Source: Acridotheres tristis
Taxonomy: Eukaryota; Chordata; Aves; Passeriformes; Sturnidae
Assembly: GCA_037013685.1 (NCBI GenBank)
Contig: CM072906.1
Coordinates: 3,695,001-3,759,000 of the forward strand
Reading direction: 5' to 3'
Length of the DNA stretch: 64,000 nucleotides
The position numbers and the translations under genes are program-made. Under the pieces are notes generated by a model. The model saw only the letters and a list, made by a program, of their open reading frames with translations. It did no database searches and was not told the origin of the DNA. Position 1 is the first letter of the stretch; the number at the start of each line of letters is the position of its first letter. Positions 11,502 to 63,944 of the stretch are shown here, piece by piece.

Positions 11502-11512
11502 AAGATGGCGGC
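11502..11512 (+). promoter_or_regulatory. YY1-type motif AAGATGGCGGC
   Basis: AAGATGGCGGC matches the established YY1 consensus, about 304 bp upstream of the UBE2G1 ATG and within the CpG island. YY1 sites of this type often lie at or just downstream of transcription starts, so the UBE2G1 start may be near here. This is inference from the motif alone. Confidence 0.5.
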
Positions 11513-11815: not shown

Positions 11816-11861
11816 ATGACGGAGCTCCAGTCCGCCTTGCTACTGCGGAGACAACTAGCAG
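11816..11861 (+). CDS. UBE2G1: UBE2G1 coding exon 1
   Basis: Encodes residues 1-15 ([15 protein letters not shown]) plus the first base of codon 16. Donor is G|GTATCT. The leader upstream is open in the same frame back to a TGA at 11564, but contains no in-frame ATG. Confidence 0.96.
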
Positions 11862-14800
11862 GTATCTGGGCCGGCGGCGGAGGAAGGAAGGGAGGGCGGC
11901 GGGTGATCCGCCGCGGGGGAGCAGCGGCCGGGCGGCCTCGGAGGGGCCGCGGCCCGCAGCGGGGGAAGGAAGGGGCGCCGGCTCGGGGAGGGGGCGGGCG
12001 TGCGTGTGTATGTGAGGGGGAAGGGGAGATTACGGCCCCCCCTCGCCGTGCTGTGCCCAGCCGGGAGCCGAGGGAACTAGGCCGAGCGGGGGAGGGGGAG
12101 CCCGGCCGGCGATTGCTGCCAGGGGAGCCGGGGGAGGGGAACGGGACCGGCACGGTGGGGGAGCGTCCCCTCGGCTGCCCCCGTCCCGCCGGGGGAGTGC
12201 GGGGTGGCACCGGCCACGCTCGTCGGCCCCCCAGCCCCCGGGTACCAAGCCTGGAGGACTCCTCGTTCCCTCCCCTTGCGGTCCCGTCTCCCTGGGGCGG
12301 GGGGGAAACCAAGCCGGAGCTCGTCCCGCAGCGCGGGGGATTTGTGCGGGCAGATGTTGGGGGGTGTTTCTGAGGCGCCGGAAAGAAGGGGAGGAAGGAG
12401 GATTGTTCCCCCACCCCCGGAATCAGGCACTCCGGGCCTAGGCTGACTCCACGCACTCGCACCCCCTTCCCGCGGGGACCTGCGGTACCCTCGTCCCGCC
12501 TCCCCTCGCCGGCTCCCCCTCACCTCCCGTGCCCGGGAGGGGGAGGCCGCCGGCCCCTTTGTTGTCAGGAGAAGCGGCGGGGGCTCCGCAGGCACCGGCG
12601 GGGGGGAGATGACCGGGCAGCAGCGGGTGCAGGCGGGGGGGTGCGGGTGGGACCGCTGCGGGGGGACCCGCGGGGAGGGGCGGGGGGGTCCGCCGGGGGC
12701 GAGAGGGCGGGACGGGCGCGGGGAAGGAGGAGTTGGGGACCGGGCTGGGGGACGGACACGGCCCGGGTGCTGCGGCCGGGCCGGCGGCGGAGGGCAGCGG
12801 GGTGGCAGCGGCGTGTCAGACGGGCTCGGTGTCGCCGCGCCCCCTCCCTTTGTCCCCGGGCGGGCGGCCGAGCTGGCCCGGCCCGGCCCCGCCGAGGGGC
12901 CCCGCATGCGCGGAGCCGCACAATGCGGCTCCATGTGAGCGCTGCCACACTTAAAGGGAAACGAGCCGGCAGCGCTGCCTTCTTCCCTCCCCCACTTGCA
13001 CATGTTCGCCGCATCCCCTGCCTGCTGGGCCGGGATACGGCGATCCGCTCGAGGAGGCACACGGGTCTGCATTGTACCTTGGGAGAATCGGGTCGCCTTT
13101 TTCGTCCCTTACGTAAAAATTGCTAAAAAATTCGTACCCACTTCAGGAAATGTGTGCCAGGTGTACCTAAACTCGGGCAATTACAGCGCTGGCTGGAGTT
13201 GGCCGAGTAGCCATACAAAGGGACAGGGTCACTGGGTGGCACAGGAATTCCCGGAGGAGGATTTTGGCCCGAGACTTCGGTTAATGTGGATGGAAGCCTA
13301 AGGGTGGAAAGCAGCATTGTTAGCAGTAAGGAGATGAGGTTGCATAACCGGGTATAGCGAACAGGATGGTGTGTTTGTGCATCTCCAGCGCTGTTTTCTG
13401 GCTTTGGTTGATGATCAGTTTGAGAAACTTCAATATCGTTAAGTACTAGCACAGAATGTTTTACCTGTTTAGGGTGAAGCTCTTGGAAAAAAAAAAATAA
13501 AAAAAATCTCATACTGTGGGTAAAAATCGCATACTGTGGCCTTAGTCCTGAACATCAGCATGCACCTGTTAATGCCCTGGTAACTGCTGAAGTTATTAGT
13601 GACACTCAGTGAGGCGTCTGCACTTTCAGATAAGCTAATAACGCCTCGGTATGGGCTTACTGCAGGAACTCCATACTGCATGTGACGTGAAGCTTCTCCT
13701 AAATGCGATCTCTTAAGGGAAACAGCATTGTAGAATAGTTGCTTTTTAACTTGGTTTAGAAGAAGCATTTGGTAACCGAGAATGCTTCAGCTGTCTGGAA
13801 TGTCTCTTTTAATATAGTAATTGTGCTCCACAAAAGAAAGCTGGACATTTAGTTGAAGTTTCTTGATAAGTAAGTATTCAGCATCTGTAGTGTATTTTTT
13901 TTTTTTTGTCTTGTGAGGTCTTAAGGCATTGGATATGTAAGTACCTTTGTAGACTACTAAATCTAGGGGCTAACTTCTGTGTAACTTTCTGCTCATTCTT
14001 ATCTGAAGGCTTTGTGTGTACTGGTGAGGTTTTCTAGTTGTCCCTATTACTGATTCAACTCTACTCACTGCAGCCATTTTCTTGAACCATGCAGATATTG
14101 TGGGGGTTTTGTGGTTTAAGTAATATCAATACCTTTGGTATCCCTTTACATGTACTAAAAGAAATTGAAACCGTATTAAAAGTGACTTTGAGTGTGCATG
14201 AAGAGTCTTGAACTCTTCAAAAGTCCTACGTGGAGTAACTGACCTGAGAAAGTTATCACATATGGAAGAAACTATTTTCTATGTGGTGTCTGAACTGAGC
14301 TGGCACTGTACTGACACTGGTTTTTCTGGTGTCAGGCCCCTTGAAGTGATAGTGCAGAGGCTGAGCTTCATGATCTTCCTTCCCTAGTCTCACCTGCTCC
14401 AACGTGTCCCTTTGTTAATACCCACACTGTTTCTTCTACCTCAAACCAAAAGTCACCACTCTGATGGTGTTTGTCCTGGTGGGACTGATATTCAGTCTCT
14501 CTGCTCCATGCAGTTTTTCCCTACATCAGGTGTGGTGAGTCATGGGCTTGTACCTGGTGGTTGGGTTTTGGATACGAGTTAGCTGACCTAAGCTAGTTTA
14601 AGTTACATTAGATCATTCACTTGTGCTTCAATAATGACCAGAGATCTGAAGCTGAAGGATGACATCCAGAAATGAAGGGAGGTTAAAGTGAGAATCTGAA
14701 ACCTGTGCAGTGGTGGAGCAGTTGAGGAGTATAATAAAAATTCTTTAATGATGAGACTGGATATCTCTTTTCAATGCCCAGAAGAAAAAAAAAACAACAG

Positions 14801-39322: not shown

Positions 39323-39990
39323 TATGATGCAGAACAACTTTTAGAAGGTCACTTCATGGTGGAGTTCAGAAAAAAATTATGTCTGTAAAACAATACTGTG
39401 CATAAAGTCTCCAAAGTTGGTCCTCAAAGCAAGCACCAAATTTGCTGTTGGAGCAGCATCGAGTATTTGGCATTTTTGCGGTATCTAAGCAGGAGCAATG
39501 ATGAGCAGTGACAACAGGCGAGGGGCCAGCTATGTTGTACACGGGGCTGGGAAAATGATCCTGTTATTGGTCATTGCCTGTCGACTTGTAACCACTTTTC
39601 ACCCACCGGGCACCAATCCAGTGTCCAGGGGGCACAGATTCAGTGTCCAGGATTGTTGGCTCTGAAACAAAAGCAGGAATTGAAGTGACGAGGAGCCCCC
39701 ATGTCCCCGAACTCCCTCGCTGTGGTTCCCGCGGCCACTGCCTGGGCACAAGGTGCGTTCCGGGCTCAGGGCGGCGGTCCCGGGGCAGGTGAGCGGAGGT
39801 GATGCACAGGTGCGTTTGTCCCGGTGCTGGGTGCATTTATTCCAGCGTTCCCCAGCCGTGCCAGTCGCCGCTTTGCTGTTCACCGCCAGCCCAGCGCTCC
39901 GGCCGGGATCACCGGGTGTCTTCTCGCCGGGGCGGCTACACCGGGCCGGCTGCGCACTGCGTCCGCGACCGGGCTGGGCCGCCGGCCGGC
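39323..39990. other. Intergenic spacer between UBE2G1 and ANKFY1
   Basis: A+T-rich until about 39.58 kb, then rising in G+C and CpG toward the ANKFY1 promoter. No coding exon or mobile element was recognised. It passes directly into the 10-bp tandem array. Confidence 0.6.
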
Positions 39991-40240
39991 CGGGACAACG
40001 CGGGATAACGCGGGAAGAGGCGGGATAACTCGGGATAAAGCGGGATATCTCGGGAGAAGGCGGGATAACGCGGGAGAAGGCGGGATAACGCGGGATATCT
40101 CGGGATAACGCGGGATAGCTCGGGATATCTCGGGAGAAGGCGGGATAACGCGGGATAGCTCGGGATAACGCGGGATAACGCGGGATAGCTCGGGATAACG
40201 CGGGATAACTCGGGATATCTCGGGAGAAGGCGGGATAACG
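39991..40240 (+). repeat. Tandem array of 25 decamers, consensus CGGGATAACG
   Basis: Twenty-five consecutive 10-bp units, each beginning CGGGA, with no insertion or deletion across 250 bp. Unit counts by hand: CGGGATAACG 9, CGGGAGAAGG 4, CGGGATATCT 4, CGGGATAGCT 3, CGGGATAACT 2, and three singletons (CGGGACAACG, CGGGAAGAGG, CGGGATAAAG). All variation lies in the last five bases, and variants recur in blocks (for example ATATCT then AGAAGG then ATAACG), which suggests duplication of multi-unit blocks. It ends about 55 bp before the first TCTCGCGAGA element and 128 bp before the ANKFY1 ATG. Confidence 0.97.
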
Positions 40241-40294
40241 CGGAGCGAGCGGGTCCCTCCCCGGGCGCGGCCGGTGGCGGCGCTGTCGCGTTCC

Positions 40295-40304
40295 TCTCGC
40301 GAGA
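40295..40304. promoter_or_regulatory. ANKFY1: TCTCGCGAGA element, distal copy (BANP motif)
   Basis: Perfect 10-bp palindrome TCTCGCGAGA. This element is known to be bound by BANP at CpG-island promoters, in a way that requires unmethylated CpG. Position 64 bp upstream of the ANKFY1 ATG (from its last base) fits a core promoter element. Confidence 0.8.
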
Positions 40305-40337
40305 GTCGCCGCCCGCCCCAGCGCCGGAGCATTGCGG

Positions 40338-40347
40338 TCTCGCGAGA
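40338..40347. promoter_or_regulatory. ANKFY1: TCTCGCGAGA element, proximal copy (BANP motif)
   Basis: Second perfect TCTCGCGAGA, 43 bp downstream of the first (start to start) and ending 20 bp before the ATG. It may lie at or just after the transcription start. The pair suggests that ANKFY1 is under BANP control. Confidence 0.8.
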
Positions 40348-40367
40348 GCTGGGGCGCCGGAGCCAAC

Positions 40368-40377
40368 ATGGCGGAAG
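40368..40377 (+). CDS. ANKFY1: ANKFY1 coding exon 1 (10 nt coding)
   Basis: ATG GCG GAA G, encoding MAE and the first base of the next Glu. Donor G|GTGAGG. Assigned because MAEEEVAKLEKHL is the known start of the family and the phase fits exon 2. Confidence 0.93.
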
Positions 40378-43300
40378 GTGAGGGGGGGAGCCCGGGTGAG
40401 GGGCCGGGCGGGGCCGGGGACGGCGGGGCCCGGGGGTCTCCGCTGCTCGCGGGGCACTGCAGTGTGCAGCTCCCGCGTTGTCCCGTGCGGGACGGGCTCG
40501 GTCCCGCCCGCTGCGGGTGGGGCGGGCCGCCCCCGAGGTGAGCGGGAGATGGCGGGGACCGCGGGCGGACACCCCGGGCGGGGCCGGCCTGGCGCGGGTG
40601 GCTTTGCCTCTCCGGAGGGGCCGTGGGGTGGCCGTGGGCGGTGGGAGCCGGCCGGGACGTCCCGCCGACCCGTCCCCGCAGGCCGTGGGTCAGGCGGGGC
40701 CGCAGGGGCTCTCGTGGGGCTCATCCCGGCGAGCCCTGCCCGAAGCGCCGCGGGCGGCGGCTTTCCTTGGAGCAGGGCGGGCTGCCTGTGCTGCAGCCTC
40801 CCGGTCACTTGTGCCGGAGTGCTTTTGTCAGGCTCGGGTGAGATCTGCAGAGCTCCTGGAGTGCTGCTGTTTTGCCTGAAGGCTGTCAATTACACCATTC
40901 AAATTCATTTAACCTAATGAGATTTGAAAAGAAAACGTTTGGATTTTTGCATTCTACTCTTTTCTGCAAGACAAGCTTCCTCTTTTACTTGGAGGAAACT
41001 TGGGGCAAACGGAGCTAAAATGCTCCAAGTTAAAAAATGAAGCAAATAAAGTTAAGAGTCGTGAAAGCAGAACCTTCAGCTCTTGAAGTGCAGCTCTTGG
41101 ACAGTAGTGAAATTTTAAGAATACTTTTAGAATATTGACTAAGACGGAGCAGATGCTGCTGGACTGACATGCATCAGCTTGAGAGGATGCTGCAGTCAAG
41201 CTGGTTTGATAAGTCCTTAAAGGAATGTCTTATTTCTTGTGTGCTGAAATACCACTTCTTCATATTTAGCTGACCAGTCTCTTATGCTTGCTTTTAAGCC
41301 TTGGTGACCCAGTTCTGGAGGGCTTTAGATGTCCAAGTTGATTCACGTAGTGAAACTTCCCCAGTGAGACCCTCAAGGATGTGAGGCTCTGGCTGAGGGT
41401 CCTCCTTTGCAGAATTAACCGGCAGCTGATACAAGCAAGCTCTGTTTCAAACAATCTGTACTTCTCAGAGATTCTTCCCTGACTTAAGTAATTCTCTGCT
41501 CTTTTGGCTGATGTGATTCATGTGATCAATGAATGATCCTGTGTGAACAGGAATAACAAGCTGGAGTTGTCAGTACCTCAGGATGTGTTGGAAGAGGGGC
41601 TCATTTTGTCCTTGCAAAGGAGGTACCTACCTGCAGCCACACTTTTCTTGTTAAGAGCTACAGTTGAGTCAGCTGAAAAATGAAGGACTGTTAAGGAAGG
41701 GATCTTGTAAAATTGTGGTTATTAGCTCAGAAGCCAAGTGCGTTTTCTCATAAGGAAGTGTTGCCTCTGTTTAGAAAAATCCTGCATCACATTTATTGTA
41801 ATTGCTAGCTGCAGATTGACTTAATATCTTAGTAAGACAAGAGCCAAGTTGGCATTTGTAAATTCTGAGTTCTGTACTGCTGATACTGGTGGTTTACATG
41901 CAGGCTTGGGGAAGAACTGCTGGATTAATGCTTGAGTGTAAAGAAGCAGTAGCTGTAGAGCTTTGGAGTGGTGGCAGGGTAAAGATCAAATGCATAAAAA
42001 AGTGAGGAGGAGCAAGAAAACAGTGACTTGTATGTCCTTGGGGAGATAAGGGCCAGAGTGTGGAGCAGTGGAGGGGTTAAGGAAGTAATTTGGTTTTCTG
42101 AAATATTTCACTCAGGTCCACTTTGTAAGTAAACAAAGTTTATCTGTATGGCTTCTGGGACTGCTTTTGATGGGTGGAATGGGCTGTGTGATGGGTTCCA
42201 CTAGATGCTCCCTCTAATTTTTGATATGTGCTATCTGTCTCCTCACTGCCTTTTGCCTCCCTATTTGCATTCAGCTATTTCCTCCCGAGTACTTCTGTGC
42301 CTGTCCTATAAGAAAATGACAGTAGCCTTTCCTGAAATCCTCTTCAAAGTCTTTGATATGGAATATAAACTTCTGCCAGTTCATGAGATGCTGGTCAATT
42401 TGCCGGAAATCTTTTAACAAAAGCTGCTCTTACTTACCTGGACTGAAGCTCAGAAGAAGAGGCATTTTGTGTTTTCCACTCTGCTGAACCCAGGCATCCT
42501 GTTCAGTGAGGTGTTTGGATTGGTGTTGAGCCAGAGGCTTACTGGGATCTTACTGAGCCTGGCCTTTCCGTGCCTTGAGGCAAGGACCATCATTAAGTGT
42601 GTGTGTGTGTGTGCCTGCAGTAATTGTGCATTTTATCTATTCACTCTTTAAGTGAGCAGTTTATGGGGAAAACTGAGGCTTTGCTCTTGTGCTGTAAATG
42701 TTGGCTAATTGGACATTGAGAACTCTCTTGAATGTGTATTTGAAATGTGCTGTAAATTAAGTACTGTCCTCAAGAGCAGCTACTACACAGCATGTGTGCA
42801 GATTGTCAGGTAGAATAAGAGAAACTCTTCATTTTACAATTCTTCTAATTGATACAGTAAGCAAATACCTATCAGTCCTTCTCACTGAGTTTGCAGGAAG
42901 CATATGGTGTCAATCTGAAATCAAGAGTTCTCCAAGCTTTGCTTCTTGGAGGTACTTTCACTGCTAGTAGGGATTGTCTGGGATTGCTCTGCAAGCAGCA
43001 GGAACCAGCTGGACTGTTGGTCATGTACAAAGCTTCAGCTACTGCTGCTTGTGGGTTTAAGGTGGTTTTGCATTGTATCCTAGTGATTTCAGGCTGATTT
43101 GGAGCTAGTGAGCTGACTTTGGTAAAATGACAGAATTTAAGATGTTACCTCAGGTACGGATTCTTTATTCCCACCTTTGCACTCCCGTGGTTTAAGTGGA
43201 AGGTGCAGTATTTCTATAAGGTGGTGCATGCAATGAGCTTCATTAGGCACTTCTTATTCCTAGCATTTGAATTTGTGTGCCATCTAAAAATCTCCCTGGA

Positions 43301-46300
43301 TGAACAGTGGTGCTGTTCTCAGTGTCTTTTACTCTGGGCTCCTGTCAGACTCCTGCTCTAATGGTAGGACGTGCTTTGTGCCCCCCAGCACTATCTTTAT
43401 GGAGAAATGAGGAAGGAGTACTTGCTCAAGGGACATGTCCTTCTAGTTCTGGGAACACCAAAACTGCATTCATCTTCATACAGAAAGACTGACCACAGCA
43501 GGATTTCAAACCATGCTTGAGGCTTGGTGTAGTGCTGATGGCACAGTTCTGAAATCAGAGTATATTTCAGTAGAAAAAGAAGGGTATCCCAAAGGAGATG
43601 GTGTCTGTGAAATTTTGAAGGATGAAGATAACAAAATGGCTTTTGAAGGAAGTACCTGCCAAACCTGCTTACGTAGTATTAACTGAAAAATAAAATGGGA
43701 TATGTTGCCTCTTGTTTATCCATTACAAAAGCTGCTAAATTAAAAGACTTCTGAGGAAGCATTTGCTGCAGGGTCCATAGAGGACAGGCTAAACAAGGTG
43801 TTCTGTCTGCAGCAGAGCCAGACTGATGCTCTGCCCTGGGGACCTGTGTCAGAGCAAGGCCAAGGTCAGCTGTGCTGTTGAACTTTTCTACAGAAGCAAG
43901 AAGAAAACACTGATGAACAGAGCTCAGTTTCTCATTGTTTGTACTAGTGATATTTTGTAAATATTTTAGAGAAGTCATTGAAATATGAATTCCTGGCTAC
44001 TAGGGAGTAATCTTGTAGGAACTTTCCCACCTAAAATCACTGGTTAGCTTCCAAATTTATCCTCTCTGCCCCCTCTTATTTTGGGACTTATTTTAGGTTT
44101 GGGATTTGGCCTTACTTGAAAAATCAATTTAATGATAGTTAACATTTAGTTTCTGCAACTAATCCATAAATAAGTACTCATAAGTTGGATTGGTTTTAAA
44201 TACCTGTACAAATGTTTCCTTCCAGCAGTGGAATGTAGAGGTTTTGAATTCACTGAAAAACTTACCCCCCTTCGTGTTGTGGAGTGACCAGTTAAGTGTG
44301 ATGGAAAAGCAGGTTCTGGAAATGGGATGGAAATGCCTGTTCAAGGATCAGATTCCCAGGTGCTGTCGCTTTGCTGATCCTGAACTGAAATAGCCACCAT
44401 GGACTTGACTCCATTTGTGATGCCTTACCAGTGGAGGAGTGTGTGTGCCAGCAGGGAGTAGTTTTGTATACTTGTGACTGGCCTTTTAGCACATGGATTC
44501 TGGGGACAATCTGTTTTCCACTCTGGCTATTTTTTGTGGAATTTCTTAGCTGAAAGTTTGAGGAGTTCTGAGCAGGACAGTTAAATACTCTGAGGTAGAC
44601 ATGGTACATCAGCAACTGTTCTAATGGTCACTTGTGGTTCAAGTATCAGCTGTAAAGTCAAACTGCATCTTAACTAGGCTGAAAAAATGGGTAAGAACTA
44701 AAGACTCAGTCCTCTGCCCCACCATAATTCCCACAGAAATGGACTCCATGGTTTAGGAACTTCATAGCATTCCTGACCAAACAGAATTCAGAACTTTCTT
44801 TGTAAGTGGCTTTTATCATTGTGTTATGATTTTTCAATGTCTTTAGGAAAATGACACAAAAATAGAAGGTTTAATACCAGGGGTGAGATGCTCGGGTATT
44901 TGGAAGAGGAGTGACTCTCCTTGGAGTGTTGCAATTAAACAACATGTGTAATCTGAGGGTTACCTCAGATGCCAAAGGTGTGCATGTCTCAGCCTTGTGG
45001 TGACACTGTGTGCCTTGCAGAGGAGGTGGCCAAGCTGGAAAAGCACCTGATGCTCCTCCGTCAGGAGTATGTGAAGCTGCAGAAGAAACTCGTTGATACA
45101 GAAAGGAGATGCAACGTTCTGGCTGTGGAGGCCAACCAGGACAATGCCAGTGACACCTTCATCAGTCGACTTCTCACCATTGTAGCTGAGCTCTATCAGC
45201 AGGAGCAGTACAGGTGAGGAAGCCCCTCTGGGGAAAGGGGAATTACAGGAACCTTGGATTTTATTGACTGCACTAGGTCCTAGTTTTAGACAAGGAAAAC
45301 TCTTTGCTGCTGGGTGTGAATAAGGTCCTGAGTAGATGGAAGTCGTGGCATACTGAATCCACTTGAATTGAGAGCTCTGAGCAGAAGTTTGTCTCTCAGA
45401 CAAGTCCAGAGAAAACTAACCATGATCACTGTCAGCAGCAAAGCTCTCTTTGAATAGAAGGAGTTTTGAAGTGAACCATACTTAGTTGATGGATTAATTA
45501 GACAATGTGTCTGGAAAAACTGTTCCTTTCTTGAAAGACTTTGTCCCAAAATGTTTAAGTTCTTATGTTCCTGTTGTGTGTGAAGAAGCCTGATTAATTT
45601 GGCTTGTCTGGTTGTATTAGTGAAGTATGTGACTTAGTGATACACTGTATTTTTAAAGCTCAACACAAAATTATGGTTAATAGTTTCTTTTCCATAGGCA
45701 CACTAAGGATCCCTTCCATATTCTAGATCCCTGAGCTGATTAAGTTCTGACACTACTATGATACTCATCAGTGGCTTTGCTGTTACTGAAAGCACTGCCA
45801 ATATAGTAAAGGAGTTTAGTCATGTGAGGGAAAATCTATTTTAGTTAAAATTTCCTTGTACCAATAGCTCTTCATGAGCCTCCCTGAGAAGAGGCTCTGT
45901 GCCTGCAAGAACTTACTGTATGTAGCCTGCTGGGTAAGAGATTTGATAGGTAGGATATGTGAGAAGAGTTGGAGCACTTTATTTCTATTCAGCTTCTTAG
46001 CTTTAAAGGCCTTGAATAGTTGTCTAAAAGGGCCTGCATACCACAGAATGGGAAAGCTGGCAGGTCCCAGTGCAGGTTTCATTAAGTAACATCTCTGTGT
46101 TGTGCTGTAGTTTATAGCAGTGCTTTGATTTGGAAAATGGTCTGGAAAGCACACCTACACAGTCAGAACATTTGCAAGCCACGGGATTTCAAAATGAGAA
46201 GGGCAAGTATTTTCTAACTGCAGTGGATAACCTGGTGTAAAGGGTCAGGATGAAATGGTGTTCCTGACAGCTGGTCTCCTGGGCACTGGGGATCCTGCCT

Positions 46301-49300
46301 TGCACTCAGACTACTGTCAAACAGCATTGTTCTCTTGCAGGTCTTGCCTGAAAGCATCAGTGCTTAGCTGACTGTATTAGTATGGACACTGTGACACAAA
46401 TGTTTAACTTCAGGATTGTTGGCTTTTCCTAACTTCTACAATAATTCTCTTGCTGTTTATTCTGAAATGATTTAAAAAACCAAACCCAACCAAGCACTTG
46501 AAATATGAATGACTCATTGCATTTCTCCCTAGAAAAACAGGAATTGTCATTTGACCACATGTTGTACTTAACCAATTGTGTTTTAATGTCTCAAACAACT
46601 CGAACCTAAATGTGGATACCCAGACACAGATATTGTGGAGATGCTGAATCTATACATACCTAAGTGCAGGAGAAGTCTGCATGATACGTGTTTGTGCTTT
46701 TTTCTCATGTCAGTGATCTGAAGATAAAGGTTGGGGACAAGCACATCCGTGCTCACAAATTTGTCTTGGCTGCACGCAGCGACACGTGGAGTCTTGCCAA
46801 CCTTGCCTCAACAGAGGAGCTGGATCTGTCAGGTCAGTCACTGCTGAGTAATGTGATGCCTCAGTTGTCTTTAGGGTGGCTTGTGAAAGGGCCTGTTGGG
46901 AGAAGGTGACTTAAGTGCCTTTCAGTCTAGTGCTGTCCACTAAAAGCGATGCTTAATCTGTTGATTACTGAGTTCTCTCTCTGAAAAATGAAAGTGAGCT
47001 TGAGAACTGGGTGCCAGTGGTAGTTAAATCAATAACCTGCCTTCTTTCTCTTTAACAAACAGGGGTTGAGATTGGTGGCCTGTTTGTCTTTTCTAGAGTC
47101 AACTAAACATAATGAAAAGCAACTCTATATGGAGGAGCTTGACTTCTTCCTTTTTGAGGAAGGACAGGGCTTTTTGAGGTAGTGTGCATAATTTCTCTGA
47201 AGCGTGTCATGGAAATACCTTGCTGCTTGTTAACATAGTGTGTGTGGGAAGTGAATGCAAGCACTGATGTGTTATTGAAATTGTTTGCTTTGGCACTTTG
47301 ATACCTTTGTAAAACAGGTGAGGAAGAGAAGTTTTCTAAAATACCATCTTCTACCTGAACGTTTTGTTCTGTTGTAGCTGTTTCTTGCATGTACTTACAC
47401 TGGGCAGTGCTTCAGCAGATTGAACCTCTCAACAGGCTTTTCTGCACTTAACAGTGTAGGAGAGCATTATTTAATTAGTTTGTGAGCAATAAAACCAGGT
47501 ATGAAGTTAAGCAGGCTTGCTGACTGGCGTGTTGAATATTAAGCATTGGCTTCACGTTCTGCACTTAATCTTATCATGAATTCTAAGTGCAGACAAACTG
47601 GAAAGTAGCAAGTCACAGCAAGCTGGTTTTATGGGACAGCATGGGCTTCCTTGCAACATGATTTTTGGATCTTTCTGCAGCCACAAGAAAATAGATGCCA
47701 AGGAGTTTTGAAACTGAGTGCTATGCTAACAAAAAATATTGCTAAAAAGCTCTTATGTTAATTGTAGTGTCGCTACAAGTGGCAGTCCAAAGCATTTCTA
47801 ACTCCACATCTGAGCTAGTCTGAGAATCTCAAATGTAACTGCAGTCTTACATGTTTAACAATGCGAACACTGCTTAAATACATGCTAGTAAATGATACTT
47901 TTCACTGTAAAATTGAATTATTGATTTTAAAAGAATTATAAATGGCACAGAGATTAGTTTATGAAGTAGCTGGAGCAGGAAACAAGCTGTTCCCTGGAAA
48001 TGGTTTTCTTAAGAGGCTCTGTTAAGAATTTGCAAGCTAAGATTGCCCAAATCTTATCTTCAGAATGCAGGCAGCATTTGAGATTGAGCACTTTTAGAGT
48101 TCATGTAATCTGTAGAATTTTCTAATCTTTAAAAGAGTAGAAAGAGATGAACACATGTTCTCTTATTGAGAGGGAGAAAATGCACTCTTACCTCTGCCAA
48201 GGCAGAGCTGATAGTACATCTCAAGTAGGTTTTCTGATTGCTTCGAGTTTGGCAAAAAATACTTGACTTACTAAAACCTTGTGATTCCTGGGAGACAGTC
48301 TGCATGGCAAGTCTGCTACTACTCTGCAGGTAATCTGGGCCCACCCTCCATCTAAAGGAGATGTTGTAGGGTGGCTATTTCTGTGTCTTTAATGTTTTTA
48401 ATTCAATTTTTTTAAAGAACAAAATAGCTCATAGGATTAAGGTTAATTTTTTAAATGAATGGTATTTCTGCTGTAGTTGATCTGATCTTCTGAAGTTATC
48501 TTCTTAGCTACATCCTTGTAAGATAGATTGTCATTTTAATTGTGAGTGGGTGACAAAGGTCCTTGGCCACTGGGCTTGCGTAGTGTCCCATGGTGTGATT
48601 TTTCTGGTTTTCCTGCTGTGTAAAAACATCAGTTTGTGATCAGTCTTGTAAAGACCTGAAATCTAACCAGCTCCTTAAAGTGGCTCTTTTGCACTTTTCC
48701 AAGAAATGGCTACCAGCAGTTGGAAGTGCTTTGTAGGCGTTACCGAAGTGTAACAAGGTGTAAGTGCCTTTGTTGGAATGCAGCAGTTCATTACAAGTGG
48801 CTGTTAAATGAAAAGGGGGCTTTGTTCTTGCCAGGTGTGGATGTGCATTAGGCCATCTGTGAGGGACTGAGGACTTTATAAGGTCCCCTCAATATGCAGC
48901 CTTGGTGTAGCAGATAGATTTATGGGGCTTCCTGCATTCTGTAGTGTTGCAGTGTAAGGTTTTCCTGCTTGGTGCCAGCACTGTTACTCCTTTCAACTTC
49001 TGACCAATTTCACCAGTTTTGACATTTTGAACTAAGTACAATTTCAAAACAAGGCTATCTTTTTTTTTTTTTTTATGGTAGCTGTGACTTTTAGAAGTCA
49101 AAGGAATAGCAACTACTAGGATAGGTGATTGTTTTAGGCATTTTATCAATCCTGTTGCTCCCCTGTACCAGATGCTGACCCAGAGGTTACCATGGCAATG
49201 CTGCGGTGGATCTACACAGATGAACTTGAGCTAAGAGAAGATGATATCTTCTTGACAGAGCTCATGAAATTAGCTAATAAATTTCAGCTCCAGCTGCTTA

Positions 49301-52300
49301 GGGAAAGGTGAGTGTTAGTAAATATACTTGAACTCTTAAACCTTTTTTGAGCAGAAATAAGATGATAGCTGCTGGCAATAGGATAAAATTATGCCTTTTC
49401 AAAGTCTTGAGCTTTTAATAATACAGCATGTCATTCAATTTATCAGAGGAAATGAAGCATTGAGCTAAACTGTAGCAGACTTCTTGTAGGTTTTATTCCC
49501 AGTCATACTAATAACCCTAATCTGGTGTTGAGAGGAGATCAGTAGAAGAGCATCAGGTTCAGGAGAGCTGCAAGAAAGGAATTGTTAGAGAATGCTAGGA
49601 GGAATCAATGGCAATTCGTTTGCAATATTAAAGTGGCATAAGTGAAATTTTTGTAACTTCTGTGCATCTTGTGCCACCTTTCTTCAGAAATAAGGTTAAT
49701 GTAACAGTATTATGCTTTCCCATTCTGAGACTATGATTATACTGTGGCACTGGGGGCTAGGTTATCTTGAATTATAGAGTGTTCTAAACCATCTAGAGTT
49801 AGTGAGAAGCATGAATGTGCCAATTGAAACCTCGTCAAGTTTTGTACAGCTTCAAAGCCTTCAATTTAGTCAAAGTATTCTTTGATAGAATAATCCTTTG
49901 CCCAGGGGATGTCTGAGGCAGTACATGACATTCATAATCTATGATTTATATGCCTTCAACGTGAAGCAACCAAATTGCTGTCAAGTGTTCTGACCAGAGA
50001 AGTTAAAATCTGTAAGGCCAATGCTAAAATTGCTTCAAGCCTTGTACCAGCCTAAGAGCTGCCCTAATATTGTACTGTGAGCTTAGTTGTCTGGTCATGA
50101 TAGTCCAGTGGCAGGTCCATGTGTAGGATGCCATTCATAATTATGAGATGTTTTTGTAGGTATAGAATAATCGAAAAATGGAATTGTTTTAGGCTGGAGA
50201 AGGCCACTAAGATAAGAGTGGTCAACAGCCCAGCACTGCCAAGTCCATCATTAACCATATCCCAGGTTAATGGGGGATACACATCTGGTAAATCCCTGCA
50301 GGGGTGGTGACTCTGTGCCCCAGGCAGCTGTGCCAGTGCCTGACTACCCTTTCAGTGAAGACGTTTTTCCCAATATCCAGCCTCAACAGCCCCTGCTTTG
50401 ATGACTGTAGTAAATGTTCCCCACTGCATAGCAGTGAATGAACTGCAGTTTGTACCCTGGGGAGAACTGGGATGGATCTCTGCCTGCAGACCCCTGCAGT
50501 GTGGTGTTATCATGGGACCTTGGCTAGGTGGATTCTGATAGAAATCCATGCCATATTCTACTGGCATCTATGAAAAAGAGTATTGGGACTCTGTTACATG
50601 GGAGAGTGATGTAAATAAAGCTTTTTGATTACTGACCACTGGCTTTCCTGTTCTGACAGATGTGAAAAAGGAGTTATGTCACTCGTTAATGTCAGGAACT
50701 GCATCCGTTTCTATCAGACTGCTGAGGAGCTCAGTGCCAGCACACTCCTCAACTACTGTGCTGAGATCATTGCCAGCCACTGGGTGAGTCCTGCCACAGG
50801 GAAGCAAGATGAAAAATGTTTGCACATTATAGAAACTTAATAGTAGAATTTTGCTTACCTTGCCACACTGTCTAACCTCAGTTAGTTGGTCAGTTGTGTT
50901 GAGAATGTCTGGGTGAGGGGGAGTAACATTTACCACAAGACTTGTTCTGTTCATTGGAAATACTTCCCTGTACCAAGTATCTTGGTTTCCTAAACATGAG
51001 CAAGTTAGAAGGGACTGTCTCCTAATAACCAAGAGGGTTGTTTATCAGATCTGGGCTCCAAAGTGTTTAGAAGTTCATCCATAATTGGTCTCTGTCTATA
51101 CAGATCACAAATCCCAGGCCTGCTTTTACTTCTAAAAATAATGCATGGCAGCCAGGGAAATTTATCTTCTGTAATGGAGGGAGAGGCAGCCAGTCTTGCA
51201 ACCAACTTGGAAGTTTCACCTGCTCTGATCTCTTATTTTGAAGAAAGCTTGATTAACTGAGTAATGAATTAGCCTTTAAAATAACACTTGTCAACAGTGG
51301 ACTTGAGGGGTCTTTAGGCTGTTCTAAATCTAAACTGCATACTCTAGATGTGGAGGTTTCTTTCCTTGGCTAATTCTAAGGCAGAGGGAAGTGTTTTGAT
51401 ACATTAATACGTAAAAAAAGATTCATATATGTGAACCTGTGGGTCAGCAGTTTTAACTCTTGACTTTCTTCTTAACTCCTAACTTTTGATACTTATCTCT
51501 ACCTGGAAATTAAGTTGCTTCTGTTTAGTCAAATGAGCACTAACTCAGACCTAAAATCTTTTTATTCCTAAGCTTCTGTTTACTTTTATCTATAATTTTA
51601 TGAATCAGTCTTCAGTAGTTGTAGGACTTTTTGTCAGAGTTAAGAATAAGTTAGTTGAGGATTATTTTAAAGACTAGATGTTAACCCTCCACAGTAGTAT
51701 TAAAATGCTACTTTTTCATGTCTATAGACAAAAAGGAATAAAAATTTCACTAACTGATCTTGAAACTGAAATGTAAGATTTAAAGCTTCCTGACTGTTTC
51801 TTCCTAATCTTAAAGGACTCTCTGGGATTGATTTTAACTGAACTTGTTTTGTGAACTTCAGAATTACATTGTGCAATGCCCTGTCTATAAATAAAACAGG
51901 AGTATAGCTTACCCTTCTCTTCTTCAATTGCTCCTAGGATGACCTGAGGAAAGAAGACTTCAGCAGCATGAGTGCTCAGCTATTGTATAAAATGTTCAAG
52001 TCAAAGACAGAATATCCTTTGCATAAGGCCATTAAAGTTGAGAGAGAAGATGTAGTCTTTTTGTATCTTATTGAAATGGATTCTCAGGTATAGTGAGACT
52101 AACTTGATCTATCTTCTCGAATTTGGTGTTACAAATAACTAGTTCCTAAGTATCAGTGTGAACCTTGTTAGTCATTTTTGTCACTAATTCTTATTTGCAT
52201 GTTTAGCATTGCCACAGCTACTTCTGTGTCTGTAATGGAGGTCTGTCTAGCAGTAGCTCCGTGAGGACATAATTTAGAAGTGATTCATAACACTTAAAAC

Positions 52301-55300
52301 ATCTTGCATGCAACACAATATATCTGATAAAATCCATTACCTGATATTGCTCTGCACATTTAAAGCTGAGTGGTTATAATAGACAGCTTTGCTGCTTCAT
52401 GGTAGTTCAGTAAGGATAATTTCCTTGAACAGCTTTTCTGTTGGAAGCTGAAGTTACAAATATTTGTTCTGCTTGGATAAAAACTCCAAACAACTAGCAA
52501 ATAAATTTTGCCCCCAACAAAGGGCAAGGAAGAATTATTAATGTCAGTTGGCTGTATTTGTGTTTTAGCTTCCTGGGAAGCTCAATGAATTGGATCACAA
52601 TGGAGATCTTGCTCTGGATCTAGCCCTGGCCCAAAGATTGGAGAGTATTGCAACTACACTGGTGAACTACAAGGCTGACGTAGATAGGGCAGACAAGAGA
52701 GGCTGGAGTCTGCTCCATAAAGCCATCCAGAGAGGTAAGTAGATGGGATATGAAGCTTTGTTCACTTCCTAGTGTGGAATAAGTATTTCAAAGTCTGTTC
52801 CTGTGTCATGTTATAGTTGACACTGCAGTTAGAAAATCGTAGTGAAGTATGAACTTTGTCCTGTTTATTTTTCTTTTTTCAGACATAAAAGCAAACAGAC
52901 TATTATTTGAGATCTGAGAGCCAGCCTGCTGGCTGGGTAGACTTATGCTACCTGACATCCAGGTGCAATCTAGTAGAACATTGCTGGTAAAATAAGAAAT
53001 ATAGGGAGACACTGGCAATATTCTAATTTGACAGTATCCTTTCTGACAAGTAGTTGAATTGAGTACAACAAGGGTCACAAAGACAAAGTCTTTTTCTAGA
53101 CTTGGGTTGGATGCAGCATATGCTGCTTTGTGATGTGGTTAACAGTCAGGGTCCTCAGTACTGCACAGCAGGTTTAGAGGAGGAAAATCTGACTGAAAGA
53201 AGATGAGGATCAAGTGGAGGTACCTCTGTCCAGCCTGAATATTTTCAAAGCTCCAGTGCAGTTACCAGAATGGAATCTAAGTACAACTACATGATTATAT
53301 TGAGCTGTTCTCCACCTTAGAGTGGAAAATGCATCTTATGAGAATTGGAGCACAGCAGGTTCTGGTTGCCATGGCCACAGTACTCTGAAGGCTTTGGATC
53401 AGCAGCATCTTGGCCTGTGGTCAAAGTGTGGTAAAAATCTGCAGCCAGCACCTTGTGTTGCTCGTTATTTCTGCACTGTCTTTGGCAGCTCTGTTCCAGA
53501 AAATTTATTTCTAGCACCAAACTGTCTTGGACCCCTAGAAGTAAAGGAAGAAGTTGGGAACTCTGTTTTAAGCTCACAAAATTTAAATTAATCTCCTCCA
53601 TACCTTAACAGGGTAATACTGGCATCTGATCCTGTGAATGAGACTCCAGCTGCAGGAGTAGGAGACATTGTAGGCATAGGTCAGTGTTGTGGTGGCTGCA
53701 GCCCTATAAAACACTGGAAAAATTGCAGCAGGATGCTCTTCATTCTTAATCCTGCATTTGTCCCTAGTTCTGTCTGCTTTCAGTCTGAGCTAGAGCCCTG
53801 AGAATGAATATTTGCTTTTCAGTAACCACAGCTTCAGTGAATTCATCACAGTTAACAATCACATGTTCTGGAAATGGAGCTAAAGCAAATTGTCTGCACT
53901 TGCCACATGATTCTTACTGTTTATGATCACTGCAAAGTGGGAGAATGTCTGATATGGAAATCAGAAAATCGGGTTTTTGTTTTTGTTGGCAGAGATAACC
54001 TAGCAATATGGATTGAAATACTGCTCTTTGTTCTCCAGTCTTACATTCAGGCCAAGCTAAGTGTGAATATGTCTATGCAAAGTAGCCTTTGAAGCTAGGG
54101 CAGCTAATACTTTCCTGAAGTCATTCTTTGCATTGGTGTTTCAAGTTCAAGGTTTCATATGGTGAAGTGAGTGTGAGTTGGGACTCCTGAGAAGCTCTCA
54201 AAAGGAGTTCTTGGGAATGCTGTGCATGGTGGGTCTGCACTGCTCAAGCCCTTACCCTGTATATATATGAGAGCCTGAATTTCCAAGAACAAAGGCAGTG
54301 TTATTACTTGTTTATGTAGAAGACTCAATAGACTGATGTGAACTAGAAACTTTGACTAGTCTTGGAATGGTACCTTTTGTTCAAAAAATACTTGTATATT
54401 TAGTATCACAGTTTGTCCAATGTTTGATTAGAACAACAATGGATTTATCTTGCTAGAGGAATGAGGAAAGTCAGTATCTCTGTAACAATAAGCTGGTGTG
54501 AGAACTTGAGTCACAGGTAACCTGTGGGAAAAACACTTTTTCTAAGGCCTTGCTGTGTGAAATATTTTAATCCTGACTTTGCAGTGAAGCTTTGTTGAAG
54601 TTGCCCATTGCTGAGGCATTCTAGGAGCAGATACTTGTGTTGGAATGAATGTATGGTATGAAGTCATGTATATCCATTTCCTGGAGTATAAAATATATAG
54701 GCTACATATATCCATTAATAACCTTGTTTTGTTTCACAAAAGGAGATAAATTTGCTGCAAACTTTCTCATTAAAAACGGTGCCCGTGTGAATGCTGCTAC
54801 ACTGGGAGACCAGGAGACTCCTCTGCACCTTGTGGCATCCTACAGCCCCAAGAAGCACTCACCAGATGTCATGGCAGAGATGGCACAGATTGCACAGTCC
54901 CTCCTGCAGGCAGGAGCCAATCCAAACATGCAAGACAGCAAAGGCAGGTAAATACTGGGGGAAGGAAAGTCTGCTAGCAGTGTAACACAGTGCTGTGGTC
55001 ATCAGATGCAACCTCCTAAGGACCTGTTCAGGTCTTTCAGCAAAGCACAGCTGATGCTGGAAGCAGGAATTCATTTACCCAGTTTGAGACTCAGAGCACT
55101 GAAAGTAGAAAGTTGTGCAGGCTGAATGGTGCCCTGTCATGGCCAATTAAACATAGCCCAGCTACAGGAAGCTGGGGTGAGTTGTCAGTGTTAGAACACA
55201 TGGCACACAGTTAAATTGCCTTCATTGAATCACTGAATGGTAAAAGCTAAGTTAAGATGACAAATAGTATACCTGAAGCTGTTAGGGAAACTAAAATGAT

Positions 55301-58300
55301 CTCAAAAAATTCCAGTTTCTGCAGTGTGTTTATCTGAAGTGTAGGGCCTGTAAGCTTTTTCACAGGTTAGGTTGGGCTGGCAAGCAAGTTCATAAAATGA
55401 TATAGAAGACTTGGAATCTGTCAGCTGCACAGTTCTGATAGGTGAAGCTATTGTGCTTCTTCCCTGAAAGTTACTTCTTACATTAATGAGTTTCTTACTA
55501 CCAAATTAATTGGAGTCACGTTCACTAAAAATTTGGAATTCTCTTTTAAGAAGTGCTTGTGCCCTTCTCCTTTAAGCAGAGGTGGAAGTTCAGCCCATGG
55601 TCCTCTAGGGGCACGTTGGTGACTGGGGCCAAAGTCTGAAATGTCTCACTTACTTCTGTAACTTTTCCTGTTCTTTGCTCCAATTACAGGACCCCGTTAC
55701 ATGTGTCCATTGTGGTCAGGAATGAGCCTGTGTTCAGTCAGCTCCTGCAGTGCAAGCAGTAAGTCTCACTTGAATATAAAATACACTGAGGTTACCTTGT
55801 ACAGTGAAGATGTGAAAACTGGTTTAACAGCTCCTGTGCCTTTTTGCCTTATAATAAGACTAGTAATAAGTTGGGATGCAAAAGTGTAAAGGCTTTGCAT
55901 AAGTGAAGATGCTAAAACCATGTCAGAAGTGTGGAGTAAGTTTTTACCCTACTGTAATGAAGCAGTGAACTGCATCTCTGTGTTTTTCAAAGAGGCTGAA
56001 ATAATTCCAGAGGGGAAGTAATGTAGGAAGCTTGATTTGTAGTGGAGCTAAAAGGAGTAATAGCACTCTTGAAGTATGTCAGTATATTCTTGAGTTCAGC
56101 TTGGGTTCTGCTTAGAGGTGACTTCTTAGGGTGGTGAAGCAGAACACTTTATGTGACTCGGTTTCATTGCAGCTGCATTTGCAGTTCTTGTCCATGACTT
56201 ACTCAAGGAGATTTGCCTCTTTGTTACACTTAATGGGACCCCAGACCTTCCAGGGATTCTACACTTCCCTAGGAGCAATGAGCTTGGATCTAGTAGTCAC
56301 TAAAAGTGCTTGTTTCAGAGTATTCACAAATTCTGGAGTACCTGGAGCTACAGTAGTTGTCATAGAGGTATGAGATGAACTAGTACAGCTGTTCAGACAC
56401 TTGGAACTTCAGCTGTGTTAGGGAACCACTTCTTAATGTATGAACTGGGGAACACTGACTCTTATTTTTAGACTAGACTTGGAGCTGAAGGATCATGAAG
56501 GAAGCACAGCTTTGTGGCTTGCAGTCCAGTACATCACTGTGTCATCTGATCAGTCTGTGAACCCTTTTGAGGATGCCCCTGTTGTGAATGGAACCTCATT
56601 TGATGAGAACAGTTTTGCAGCAAGGTTAATCCAGCGAGGCAGCAATACAGATGCTCCAGACACAGTAACAGGTAAACCAGAGGTTTGTATTTCATTGTAG
56701 ACAGAAGGCTTGTGTGTTAATTGCTGAATGCTGACTGCACTTGGAGGAGCTGCACGAGGTTTCTGCAGCATTTGCTCCATAATAAATGCTAGTGGTAGTT
56801 GCTTTACCTAGAGCTGGTGCACTGACAAGCTGAGATGGACTTGCAGGAAAGGACAGAAAATCTGGACTCATTGCCAGGTTTTAGTATCCTCTTTACAATT
56901 TTAAGATGTATAATCACTGAATGGAAGTGCATGTGACAGTACAGTGTTGGAAGGGGGCTGCTGTTAACCCTAGTACCAAGGGTTTTCTTTGTTGACTTCA
57001 AAGTGCAATGTTGTAAGGTAGTGGGGAAGATGTTAGCACACTTGTTAGTATCAAAGTGTTGTTGGAGTAACAGTGTTCATGGTTTTTCTTTAGGAAACTG
57101 CTTGCTTCAGAGAGCAGCTGGTGCAGGAAATGAGGCAGCTTCTCTCTTCCTAGCAACTCATGGAGCAAAAGTCAACCACCAAAACAAATGGGTAAAAGCA
57201 GAAACTTAGTCTGAAAGTTTCCTTACTTCTCTTTGGAAATAAGATAGCAGAGATCTCTTATAGCTAAACCATAGCTTAAAGCTAGCACTGTCTGAACCTT
57301 TGCATATTTTCAGGTATTTGCTAGTGACCACTTGCATTCTTGTGGCACTATTCATGCAGAATCACCAGTTGTTAACATGCTTTTAGCACTAACCACAGTG
57401 CCTGATGTAATCAAATCCTTAGTAAAAGTAACTCGTGTAGTTTAGGACTCCTAACGAGCTTCAGCTACTAGGAGTGAAACTTCACACCAGCTCTTGTAGT
57501 TTTAATAGTTTAAAAGCTGCTTCTCTTCATGTCTCCAACTGTTAACCCAGCACCCTGTTTATTAAAGGGAGAAACCCCACTGCACACAGCCTGCAGGCAT
57601 GGCCTAGCAAACCTGACAGCAGAACTCCTGCAGCAAGGAGCCAACCCCAACATCCAGACTGCAGAAGCAGTGCTTGGGCAGAAGGATGCATCTGCTCCTC
57701 CATCAGCAGAGAATGTTCATCTGCAAACTCCCCTTCACATGGCTATTGCTTACAATCACCCAGATGTGGTGTCAGTCATCCTAGAACAAAAAGGTAGGTG
57801 TCCAGACTGTTGATGCTGCAGTGAATTGGTGTCTGAATGGCATCCAAGCTGTTTTGACAACAGACAACTGAGAAAGCATGTCTTCCTGTAAATAGTGTTT
57901 AAATAGAGCAATTAATAAGACTGGCTAACTAGTCTTAAATAATCTGCTTGTTAAAACAAGAAAATTATTTCATTTGTGTTTGTAAATTCTCCACTGTTGA
58001 TAATGGACTTGAGCAGTTAGTCTCATGTTCTATTCTACCTGTACAACTGAGATCATTTCAAAGCATTTGCTTCAGGTAAATGCTGGAATCAATTTTGGAT
58101 AAAGGTATTTTTCTGTGGTGAGACTTCTGCCTCCCTCAACTGCTTAGTAAGAGAACTTTATACAAGCTGTGCTGGTATTATAGTAGAGTTGAGACTTGAG
58201 TGCTCAAATACCAGCAGATGAGTTCGTTAAATGCTACTAGTCAGCTTCTTTCTAGCAGCAGGAAGGGAATTTGACAGCTGAAGCAGGGCCAATTTTGTCT

Positions 58301-61300
58301 CCTACCATAAGTGGGATTTAGAAGGAAGTAGGTGAACTGGGTAAATATTGTCCATCCCAGGGAATGGAGAAGGAGGGATGCTGCCACCATATTGTAGAGT
58401 CTCCACTCTTTATTCTCAGAGCTTTGTATATGCCACTCTATTTGGAATTGTAGCTAGAAAATTGATATTTTTCTTAGTATATGTATTAAGATCAGGCTGT
58501 AGTTGCAATATGGTCTGAACCCTAGGCAGTGTCACATCAGGGAAGCTGAAGGTACTTTGCTCAGATCTTACAAACTGACTGCTAAAGGAACAGCCTGCTA
58601 CAAAATGTGACATTGCTGTGCAGCTTTCGGTGTGTGACTGTGGGTCAAGTACAAGAATGCCCTAATTCCTTCTGCTTTCTTGTAGCTAATGCTCTTCATG
58701 CTACCAACAACTTGCAAATTATTCCTGACTTTAGTCTAAAGGACTCGAGAGACCAGACTGTGCTGGGATTGGCTCTTTGGACAGGTATGTGCCTTCAGGA
58801 TGAGAATTTACAATGATGGGGAAGCTATGATGTGAACAAGATTTTCTTAAAGATAAAACAGCTGGTGTGTCTTCATGTTCTGGCTTGTGCTGCAGGGGAG
58901 GAGTTGTCAAGGAGAGCTTTAGATGGTTCTTCATATTTTAAAATAAGCGTTCACATATGACTTAGTGAAAGATTTCTAGTCCTAGAGCTTCTGCCCAGAA
59001 CTGTACTTGCAGTTCAGTGGAATTCTTCCTCTGTGAGCTCCCTGGTAGTTTTCATATCAGATCACTGTATTGTCTGTGCACATTAACTCCATTCTGTTAG
59101 TCTCAGTGTGTCTATTTTACAGAAAGTAAAATACTAATGAACTTGAACTGTTCAGGTATGCACACAATAGCAGCCCAGCTGCTTGGATCTGGGGCATCCA
59201 TCAATGACACCATGTCAGATGGACAGACACTCTTACACATGGCAATCCAGAGACAGGACAGTAAGAGTGCCCTCTTCCTGCTGGAACATCAGGCAGATAT
59301 AAATGTCAGGTAAGATCCTAACTGATACAACTCTCACCTGTTTATGTATCTAAGAGCAGGTGCTCTTAAGGACTGCTTTTGTATAATGGCTTGAGATTTG
59401 TTTCAGATGGTGATTTACACAGTTGTATGTTTGGCACTGTTTTGTGGCACTAGTGGCACTAGTTATGGCTGAGAGATTACAAATATTAACTTGGACTTGT
59501 GTATAGCTCCACTGGTCAGTGCCTCCTCTCAGAAGGCTGCAGAAGGAGGTGCCACTTAATTCTAGAGAAAACAGCATCCTCTGTGGCAGACTGAAGTCCT
59601 AGGGACAGGCCTAAAGGCACTGGACTTCTATTGTCTCATGCATTTTTCAGCTTATTAGAGCTGCATGTTTGCTACCATGTAAATTAATTAGATACAGATC
59701 CAACAACAGGAATCTGATAAACTTGACTCCTCAGTATCTCCTAGACAACTTCTATTAGACTTCACAGAACATTTGTCTGCTTACATGACTGACAGGCTGT
59801 CTGTTAAATTTGGCAAGCTGTACTGTAATGAATGTCAAGGGTACAAACTGCCTAATGCTGCTGTTCTGACTTCAACTTTTTAACAGTTGGTATTTGAGTG
59901 TTGCTTGAAGTGTTGCCATGTTGGAGACAAAGCTGTTTGCTTCTGTGGCAGCAGGCTGGCTCAGAAGGAACTCTGTTCAAATAATGGCTGCACTGGAGGA
60001 ATTGAATGTCTCTGAGCTACGAACACTAACTTGTTTTTCCAGCTTTAGAAATCAGTTACTTGGTAAAAGTGAAGGGGGGAAGAAAGGTAGACTACAGAAC
60101 TGTGATGAAATACATGGTGTGTTTATGATGGTCTTATCACAGCAGGAATACATATGAGAGGTTATTGGCTTTGCCAATCAAGTGCTGTCACTGAACTTTA
60201 TAATGCATCTGTAACACCTGGAAGTGTCCCTGCTGCAGGACCCAGGATGGAGAGACAGCCCTACAGCTGGCCATCCAAAACCAGCTGCCACTCGTGGTGG
60301 ATGCCATTTGTACCAGGGGAGCAGACATGTCTGTGCCAGATGAGAAAGGAAATCCTCCCTTATGGCTCGCCTTGGAAAACAACCTGGAAGATATTGCATC
60401 AACTCTGGTAAGACTGTCAGTTGGCTTTAATCTCACTTTTGTTCATCCTCTTAGCAACAAAAGGCTTCATCAGCAAAAACAAACTCAGTGCATGAAGAGA
60501 ACAGACTAGCCCAATATTACTAATTTCTGGAGGTCTTTTCTTCACCAGAAATTCCTCTTTAGTGCAGGAATCTTATAAATACTCTAGTCTGCATAACCAA
60601 ATATCTTGCAGCCACTTCAATAAAAATATATATTCTATATATATATTCTGCTGTCTAGATTCTGGATCTGGGAGGAGTAAGGATCTGCTTAGACCAGTCT
60701 GTAGCATACACAGCTTGTGTAATGATCAGCTTTCTGAATAAAACTGAATACTCATTTTATACTTAAGTGTATGTGCTGCTTTTTGTTGCATCTTAAAATT
60801 GAACCAAGAATGTCTTTAAAGGCTTATATTTATTTTAAAGACTGTTACTTTCAGGCATGAGTGACAAGTAGACCTCCTTGTGTCTTTTTCATAAGGAAGT
60901 TACTTGAAAGCTTTGTCCAGTTGTCTGCTAGACACAACTGTGTAAAAACTCTGCTACTGACCTGAGAAATGCATCTTGTAACTGTTCTTGACTGTGCTAG
61001 TATTGGATAAGAGTATTTATGGAGTCAACACTTAACTACTCATATTTAAACCTTGTCAATAGTTTGTAAAGTGGAGTAGAACAAGTCTTAAGTGCCACAT
61101 TGCTCAAGTGTGTAGTTCTGTAGTTGAAGAATACAAATATTAGCAATAGAATTCCTGGAAAAAAAAACCCTCTCTGTTTAGCTGAATGTCTAAGAAAGCA
61201 GGTAAATGGGACAGACCTTCAAAGGCAACATCTGCTGATGCTGCTTGATTTACTGTAGGTCCTTGTCATTGCTGAAAGTGAGGTAACTAGTCCAACCTGC

Positions 61301-63321: not shown

Positions 63322-63944
63322 GTAAGCTGGGAGTGTTCAAACCATGCTGGTTTTGTTACTGCACTAGTTTGTGGTTAACAGCTGTTCCACAAGCCAGTTC
63401 TGTTTTATCCTTTTGTGGCTTTACATGCAATCTGTTTGCCAGATGCCAGTTCTCTTATTAGGAAGCTGTAGGTATGTCTGTGATATGTATGAGTAAGAAC
63501 ATTGAGGGTTAGTGTCTTGTCAAATCTTCTTCTCTTGTCAATACTAAACTGAGAAACAGGCATATGTGTGTATAAGGAGAAAATTCTAACTCTACTCTTG
63601 TCTTGTGCTGGACTAGTACAGAAAAAATCTATTACCCAGCTATCCAAAAACAGAACACTTGACCTAAAATAACTGAATAATAGATGCTATGCTGCCCTGC
63701 TGAACTGTAAAACCTCCAACTGTATCTTCAGGCTTCTGGTGTGACACTTCAGGCAGCTGTTCAGGAGATTCTTCCTATCCTGTGTAAGTTTAATTACTAG
63801 TAAAATATTTGAGTGTTTAGTGAGCTCTTGTAATATATCTAAAACATGGTTACAAACACAGTCAGTTTAAATATGTTTTAACATCAGCTGAAGAGCAAAA
63901 TTGAACAACATGTACTTGGTATTAAGCCAAAAAAACAAATTCTC

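Follow-up and report, generated by a model that had tools for sequence, protein, structure and literature searches.

A 250-bp array of decamers lies just upstream of ANKFY1 in Acridotheres tristis, and its period is close to one turn of the DNA helix. Does this period reflect a function at the promoter, or is the array one product of a general process that makes tandem repeats? A sequence-only reading had offered three options, namely a phased protein platform, a nucleosome-excluding or bending element, or a young minisatellite. Here we report an analysis of the array, of the 64-kb window in which it lies (the whole stretch of DNA analysed, 64,000 nucleotides) and of the genome of the same species (1.04 Gb, 85 contigs). 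Avian promoters and upstream regions are described as abundant in tandem repeats in a study of the blackcap (PMC10781513). The array is real and neat but looks like an ordinary promoter minisatellite, and nothing in our results points to a function of its own.

Array and gene setting

The array consists of 25 consecutive decamers on the forward strand, each headed by CGGGA (25/25) and free of indels, which confirms the earlier claim of 25 uninterrupted units in register:

39991..40240, + strand: 25-unit decamer array, commonest unit CGGGATAACG (unit count, Tandem Repeats Finder)
40241..40243, + strand: broken 26th unit with the first three bases CGG, where the tandem match stops (Tandem Repeats Finder, sequence)

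The units are of eight types: CGGGATAACG (nine copies), CGGGATATCT (four), CGGGAGAAGG (four), CGGGATAGCT (three), CGGGATAACT (two) and three singletons. Tandem Repeats Finder reported the array at 39991-40243 with scores of 317 (period 30) and 303 (period 20) and gave no period-10 row for it; the six further rows in the window had a best score of 69, and the array is thus its top-scoring tandem repeat. Nowhere else in the window do three or more CGGGA heads follow one another every 10 bp. With 25 x 10 bp in head-to-tail order, the array falls within the range of minisatellites (units of about 10-60 bp), the option that the evidence favours. A chance origin was rejected on the basis of the Tandem Repeats Finder scores, the unit count and the genome-wide matches relative to a reversed control (see below).

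The unit count could also be an artefact of collapse or expansion during assembly. GC-rich promoter sequence is reported as missing from earlier assemblies (PMC8081667; PMC9516821), often so according to the latter, and the draft genome of the zebra finch contained a misassembly of the repeat upstream of dusp1 (PMC3410896). However, a collapse would not be expected to leave eight types of unit without a simple order, and a single long read would span 250 bp; we regard an artefact as exceedingly improbable.

The window holds the first part of ANKFY1, with UBE2G1 upstream on the same strand. Probes consisting of the human protein sequences matched ANKFY1 exons within 45020-63324 and UBE2G1 at 11816-33544, both on the + strand. 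A Pfam search of six exons identified families in four of them (BTB and ankyrin repeats; UQ_con); two ANKFY1 exons were without a family, and one UQ_con match was below the curated cut-off. The gene name ANKFY1 given earlier is borne out by the exon matches of the protein probe and by the BTB and ankyrin repeats. The array ends 128 bp upstream of the ANKFY1 start codon, inside the CpG island of the gene, which was called in 200-bp windows (GC content of at least 0.55, CpG observed/expected of at least 0.65) with the array itself included in the measurement:

39631..40920, no strand: CpG island with the array, the probable core promoter and exon 1 (composition scan)
40295..40304, no strand: exact TCTCGCGAGA palindrome, a CGCG element (sequence)
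40338..40347, no strand: second exact TCTCGCGAGA palindrome, a CGCG element (sequence)
40365..40374, + strand: AACATGGCGG over the start codon, which we take to be a YY1-like site (sequence)
40368..40377, + strand: probable coding part of ANKFY1 exon 1, ATGGCGGAAG, followed by the splice donor GTGAGG (sequence, downstream exons)

The join of exon 1 (ATGGCGGAAG) to the downstream ANKFY1 exons is probable. The two CGCG elements are 43 bp apart (start to start), and 54 bp separate the end of the array from the first of them. This element is described as driving bidirectional transcription at TATA-less CpG-island promoters and as being located no more than 50 bp from annotated start sites (PMC6192621). 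BANP has been reported as its binder. Because of the 54-bp gap and the vicinity of CGCG elements to start sites, the array is probably located just outside the probable ANKFY1 core promoter.

The CpG island of UBE2G1 (11301-13210) yielded no Tandem Repeats Finder rows, and such arrays are therefore not general to the islands in the window. A 22-bp unit (GGGCACAAATCCAGTGTCCAGG) is present in two copies at 39608-39651, 339 bp before the array and across the left edge of the ANKFY1 island.

Related arrays in the genome

A search of the genome for four CGGGA heads at 10-bp spacing gave 643 overlapping matches (352 + 291) versus 228 for the reversed control, many of the matches listed being runs of the CGGGA pentamer. 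When the sixth base was required not to be C, which removes pentamers but also tails starting with C, the pattern (CGGGADN4)3CGGGA gave 346 overlapping matches (198 + 148) versus 26 (16 + 10) for the reversed control; since matches overlap, long arrays weigh more in these counts. Thirteen non-pentamer places, identified by eye among the first matches listed, all on contigs C1-C6, form together with ANKFY1 a set of 14 loci; places judged to be runs of the CGGGA pentamer or close to such runs had been dropped. Their 250-bp flanks, with the array left out, were island-like at 10 of the 14, compared to 6.2% of 5000 random places, all drawn from the 64-kb window alone. The four loci with other flanks are located on C1 (at 10.87 and 87.5 Mb), C5 (59.7 Mb) and C6 (70.2 Mb); the latter (L046, from C6:70238300 onward) comprises 69 units of CGGGARGGRT in perfect 10-bp register and is the longest of the 14. 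Among the listed loci of this genome, the CGGGA head is constant and the tails differ from locus to locus, which makes the arrays look independently born.

A search of the same genome gave two matches outside the ANKFY1 array, an isolated word on C19 and, on C5, a place at the border of another repeat, whose units measure about 8 bp (by eye). A 25-base array pattern had no matches in viral contigs and none in prokaryote contigs, and one reading frame of a related locus, searched against Pfam, gave no families. Period-10 arrays of about 53 to 141 copies (Tandem Repeats Finder), such as GGGAAAAATC and AAAAAACGGG, were observed at L055, L057, L073 and L075 (C5 near 111 Mb, C34 and C41).

Unit spacing

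The importance of a spacing of ten bases was assessed with a series in which the fixed letters CGGGANAA (CGGGA, any base, AA) occurred three times and only the spacing was varied. In the same genome, there were at least 18 matches at 9 bp, at least 63 at 10 bp, at least 81 at 11 bp and at least 39 at 12 bp (repeat match counts being lower bounds), with 0, 0, 5 and 0 matches, respectively, for the reversed controls. Grouping of matches within 5 kb (by hand for 9 and 12 bp) gave about 7, 22, 28 and 15 loci, respectively. The ANKFY1 array contributed 2 of the 63 matches at 10 bp, and 12 of the 22 loci at this spacing are on contigs of 0.03-3.4 Mb (C44, C54 and C55 left out). A strict 10-bp rule was rejected on these four counts, by which ten is not singled out. 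Another spacing count, over loci retrieved mostly through 10-bp matches, was for that reason left out of the evidence. Many of the spacing-11 arrays on the large contigs (C1, C3, C5, C6) are near a contig end, for example at 149.3-149.9 of 150.9 Mb on C3 and at 111.0-111.5 of 112.5 Mb on C5.

The unit length of this one motif, over the four spacings, peaks at 10-11 bp, which is near the helical turn, and the series bears on the question of whether GC-rich minisatellites of birds have unit lengths that follow the helical repeat. Unit length would itself be a signal if DNA geometry on the nucleosome or in break repair set the lengths that are born or kept, in which case CpG-island arrays, that of ANKFY1 included, would in addition hold an upstream nucleosome in a fixed rotational setting; we consider this reading unlikely.

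Helical phase, nucleosomes and G-quadruplexes

The premise that all CpG and GGG of the array share roughly one face of the helix fails at its length. Over 25 units, the drift amounts to -429 degrees at 10.5 bp per turn (17 degrees back per step) and to -176 degrees at 10.2 bp per turn, so that 7 or 17 units, respectively, are within 60 degrees of the middle unit. A bending element is likewise not predicted: in a wedge model, the ratio of end-to-end to contour length was 0.96-0.98 for the array, compared to a window mean of 0.939 and a value of 0.32 for an A-tract control, and 82% of the sampled windows were at least as bent as the array. Intrinsically curved DNA was therefore rejected.

Artificial nucleosome-positioning DNA includes the Shrader-Crothers sequences and the TATAAACGCC repeat (cited in PMC5361685), which were made or selected for histone affinity. 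The ANKFY1 array shares with them the 10-bp alternation of GC-rich and AT-rich halves. Its WW-minus-SS amplitude at period 10.0 averaged 0.491 in 147-bp windows, compared to a maximum of 0.222 in the 63454 windows elsewhere, and no window elsewhere reached the amplitude of the array at periods 10.2 and 10.4 either; at period 10.5, the array had only 0.173, a value reached by 48 windows elsewhere. Reference values at period 10.0 were 0.165 for the 601 sequence and 0.579 for an artificial TATAAACGCC repeat. Since many 10-bp repeats score high by construction, permutation of the columns is the fairer control, and it equalled or exceeded the amplitude of the array in 2.3% of 5000 trials. The amplitudes of 12 other decamers of the CGGGA class were 0.20-0.50, and the commonest ANKFY1 unit had the strongest GC/AT alternation among the 15 units compared. 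The alternation of GC and AT halves is of the nucleosome-favouring kind, which argues against the nucleosome exclusion suggested earlier.

These values raise the possibility that the array is a selected nucleosome-positioning element, which would fix a nucleosome in one rotational setting upstream of the CGCG-element promoter. The amplitude at period 10.0 and its rarity among permuted columns favour such an element, but its high value is in part what any 10-bp repeat tends to show, at period 10.5 the array no longer stands above all other windows, and amplitude is not measured histone affinity. Furthermore, the alternation is not common to the class, and a spacing of 11 bp is at least as frequent as one of 10 bp. 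Selection for positioning is therefore unlikely, and in the minisatellite reading the alternating halves would, as a by-product, probably offer a comfortable site to the nucleosome directly upstream of the promoter. If the copy number varies, the array could shift or add a nucleosome beside the ANKFY1 promoter with its CGCG elements and so change the output of the gene.

Another reading concerns the G-rich strand, in which GGG recurs with seven bases between tracts and which might form G-quadruplexes or support an R-loop. The pattern of G3+ tracts with loops of N1-7 is unbroken from 39992 to 40234 and comprises 25 G-tracts exactly seven bases apart, so that sets of four tracts with loops of at most seven bases are present, but seven-base loops are the limit of the pattern. 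The propensity score is not strong (G4Hunter mean of 0.88, best 25-nt window 1.24), and a ViennaRNA fold of the array with quadruplexes allowed and RNA energies chose none. The same island has three other G4 patterns, one of them with eight tracts in 55 bases (40382-40436). A stable G-quadruplex as the main point of the array was rejected in view of the weak G4Hunter score and the ViennaRNA fold, and the reading as a whole is very improbable.

Origin of the array

The description of the minisatellite as young is doubtful because of the eight unit types and because identical neighbours occur in only 1 of 24 pairs (against an expectation of 4.2; P 0.04 for a number this low). The trio CGGGATATCT-CGGGAGAAGG-CGGGATAACG is found three times, repeated trios overall number 3 versus a mean of 1.08 (P 0.09, not significant), and base identity reaches its maximum of 0.863 at two lags, 6 and 9 units. 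This order is compatible with multi-unit duplications besides single-unit slippage. The 250 bp of the array contain 35 CpG, no TpG and one CpA, which is consistent with an island that is unmethylated in the germline. A further short copy of the array is present in the first intron:

40471..40485, - strand: exact inverted copy, 15 nt long, of the initial 1.5 units of the array (39991-40005), within ANKFY1 intron 1 (sequence match)

Outside 39961-40280, no other stretch of the window matches the array over at least 11 nt, and when the neighbouring 600 bp were shuffled 1000 times, one shuffle gave an equally long match; the copy may be what is left of the sequence that seeded the array.

All five head columns are invariant in the 25 units, and all five tail columns vary. 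The eight unit types can be linked by about nine independent changes (the fewest, counted by hand), all of which are in the tail; the probability of an untouched five-column stretch anywhere is 0.017. The spared head columns could reflect constraint on CGGGA, as expected if CGGGA or GCGGGA, an E2F-like core, were read by a factor for which the array forms a homotypic site cluster. The invariance, however, rests on few independent changes, and the head is common to arrays elsewhere, including the four of the 14 loci whose flanks are not island-like, which makes a site cluster highly improbable.

We consider it most likely, with a probability of roughly 0.8, that the array is a CpG-island minisatellite that arose by local tandem duplication, one of many with a CGGGA head and most likely without a selected function at ANKFY1, where it is probably neutral. 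The reasons are the presence of the same head with other tails elsewhere (346 versus 26 reversed matches), the island-like flanks of 10 of the 14 loci against a background of 6.2%, the spacing series, the unit order (one trio found three times, period 30 in Tandem Repeats Finder, lags 6 and 9) and the 35 CpG with no TpG and one CpA. Against it stand the invariance of the head (P 0.017), the non-significant excess of repeated trios (P 0.09), the four loci with flanks that are not island-like (one of them the 69-unit array), the single window behind the 6.2% background, the commonest ANKFY1 unit, which alternates most strongly of the 15, and the UBE2G1 island, which lacks an array. The minisatellite would have started from a short GC-rich promoter sequence with CGGGA and grown by tandem duplication in steps of one to several units, with slippage or break repair in open germline promoter chromatin as the possible route. 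The crossovers of flycatchers, which are reported to be densest in promoters and CpG islands (PMC4878770), offer by analogy a mechanism for such a birth. The case is a warning that a striking promoter array of helical length can be one of many locus-specific minisatellites.

Known counterparts

Three 14-base words of the array and their reverse complements were not found in the open-licence literature searched, and none of the titles and abstracts listed from it describes this decamer class. We found neither tandem repeats nor minisatellites mentioned in the available text of PMC9516821, and that of PMC13060365 and PMC7757076 contained nothing on such arrays. Several known repeats share individual properties with the array. 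In vocal-learning birds, dusp1 has repeats close upstream of it (PMC3410896), as ANKFY1 does here; they differ between species, measure 578-2817 bp, are called a microsatellite and, as the authors note, show a correlation with singing-driven expression. The short tandem repeats of avian promoters (PMC4203960; PMC4725869) are likewise located within 2 kb upstream of genes, but the chicken promoter census (PMC4203960) counts units of 2-6 bases, so that a 10-bp array falls outside it. The MAOA uVNTR (PMC5874270) and the insulin-linked polymorphic region (PMC11336075) are also arrays upstream of a promoter; they have variant alleles with reported effects on expression, whereas the ANKFY1 array is known from one assembly.

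Among the phenomena described in birds, the array resembles the sequence stuttering of dot chromosomes, a GC-rich, locus-specific and imperfect tandem expansion of local origin in genes (PMC12954441). According to the available text of that study, stuttering occurs mainly in introns of dot chromosomes and in blocks of tens to hundreds of bases, whereas the ANKFY1 array has a 10-bp unit and is located at a promoter. As in stuttering, the motif differs from locus to locus; the array itself is on a contig of 11.1 Mb (C24), which is not a dot chromosome.
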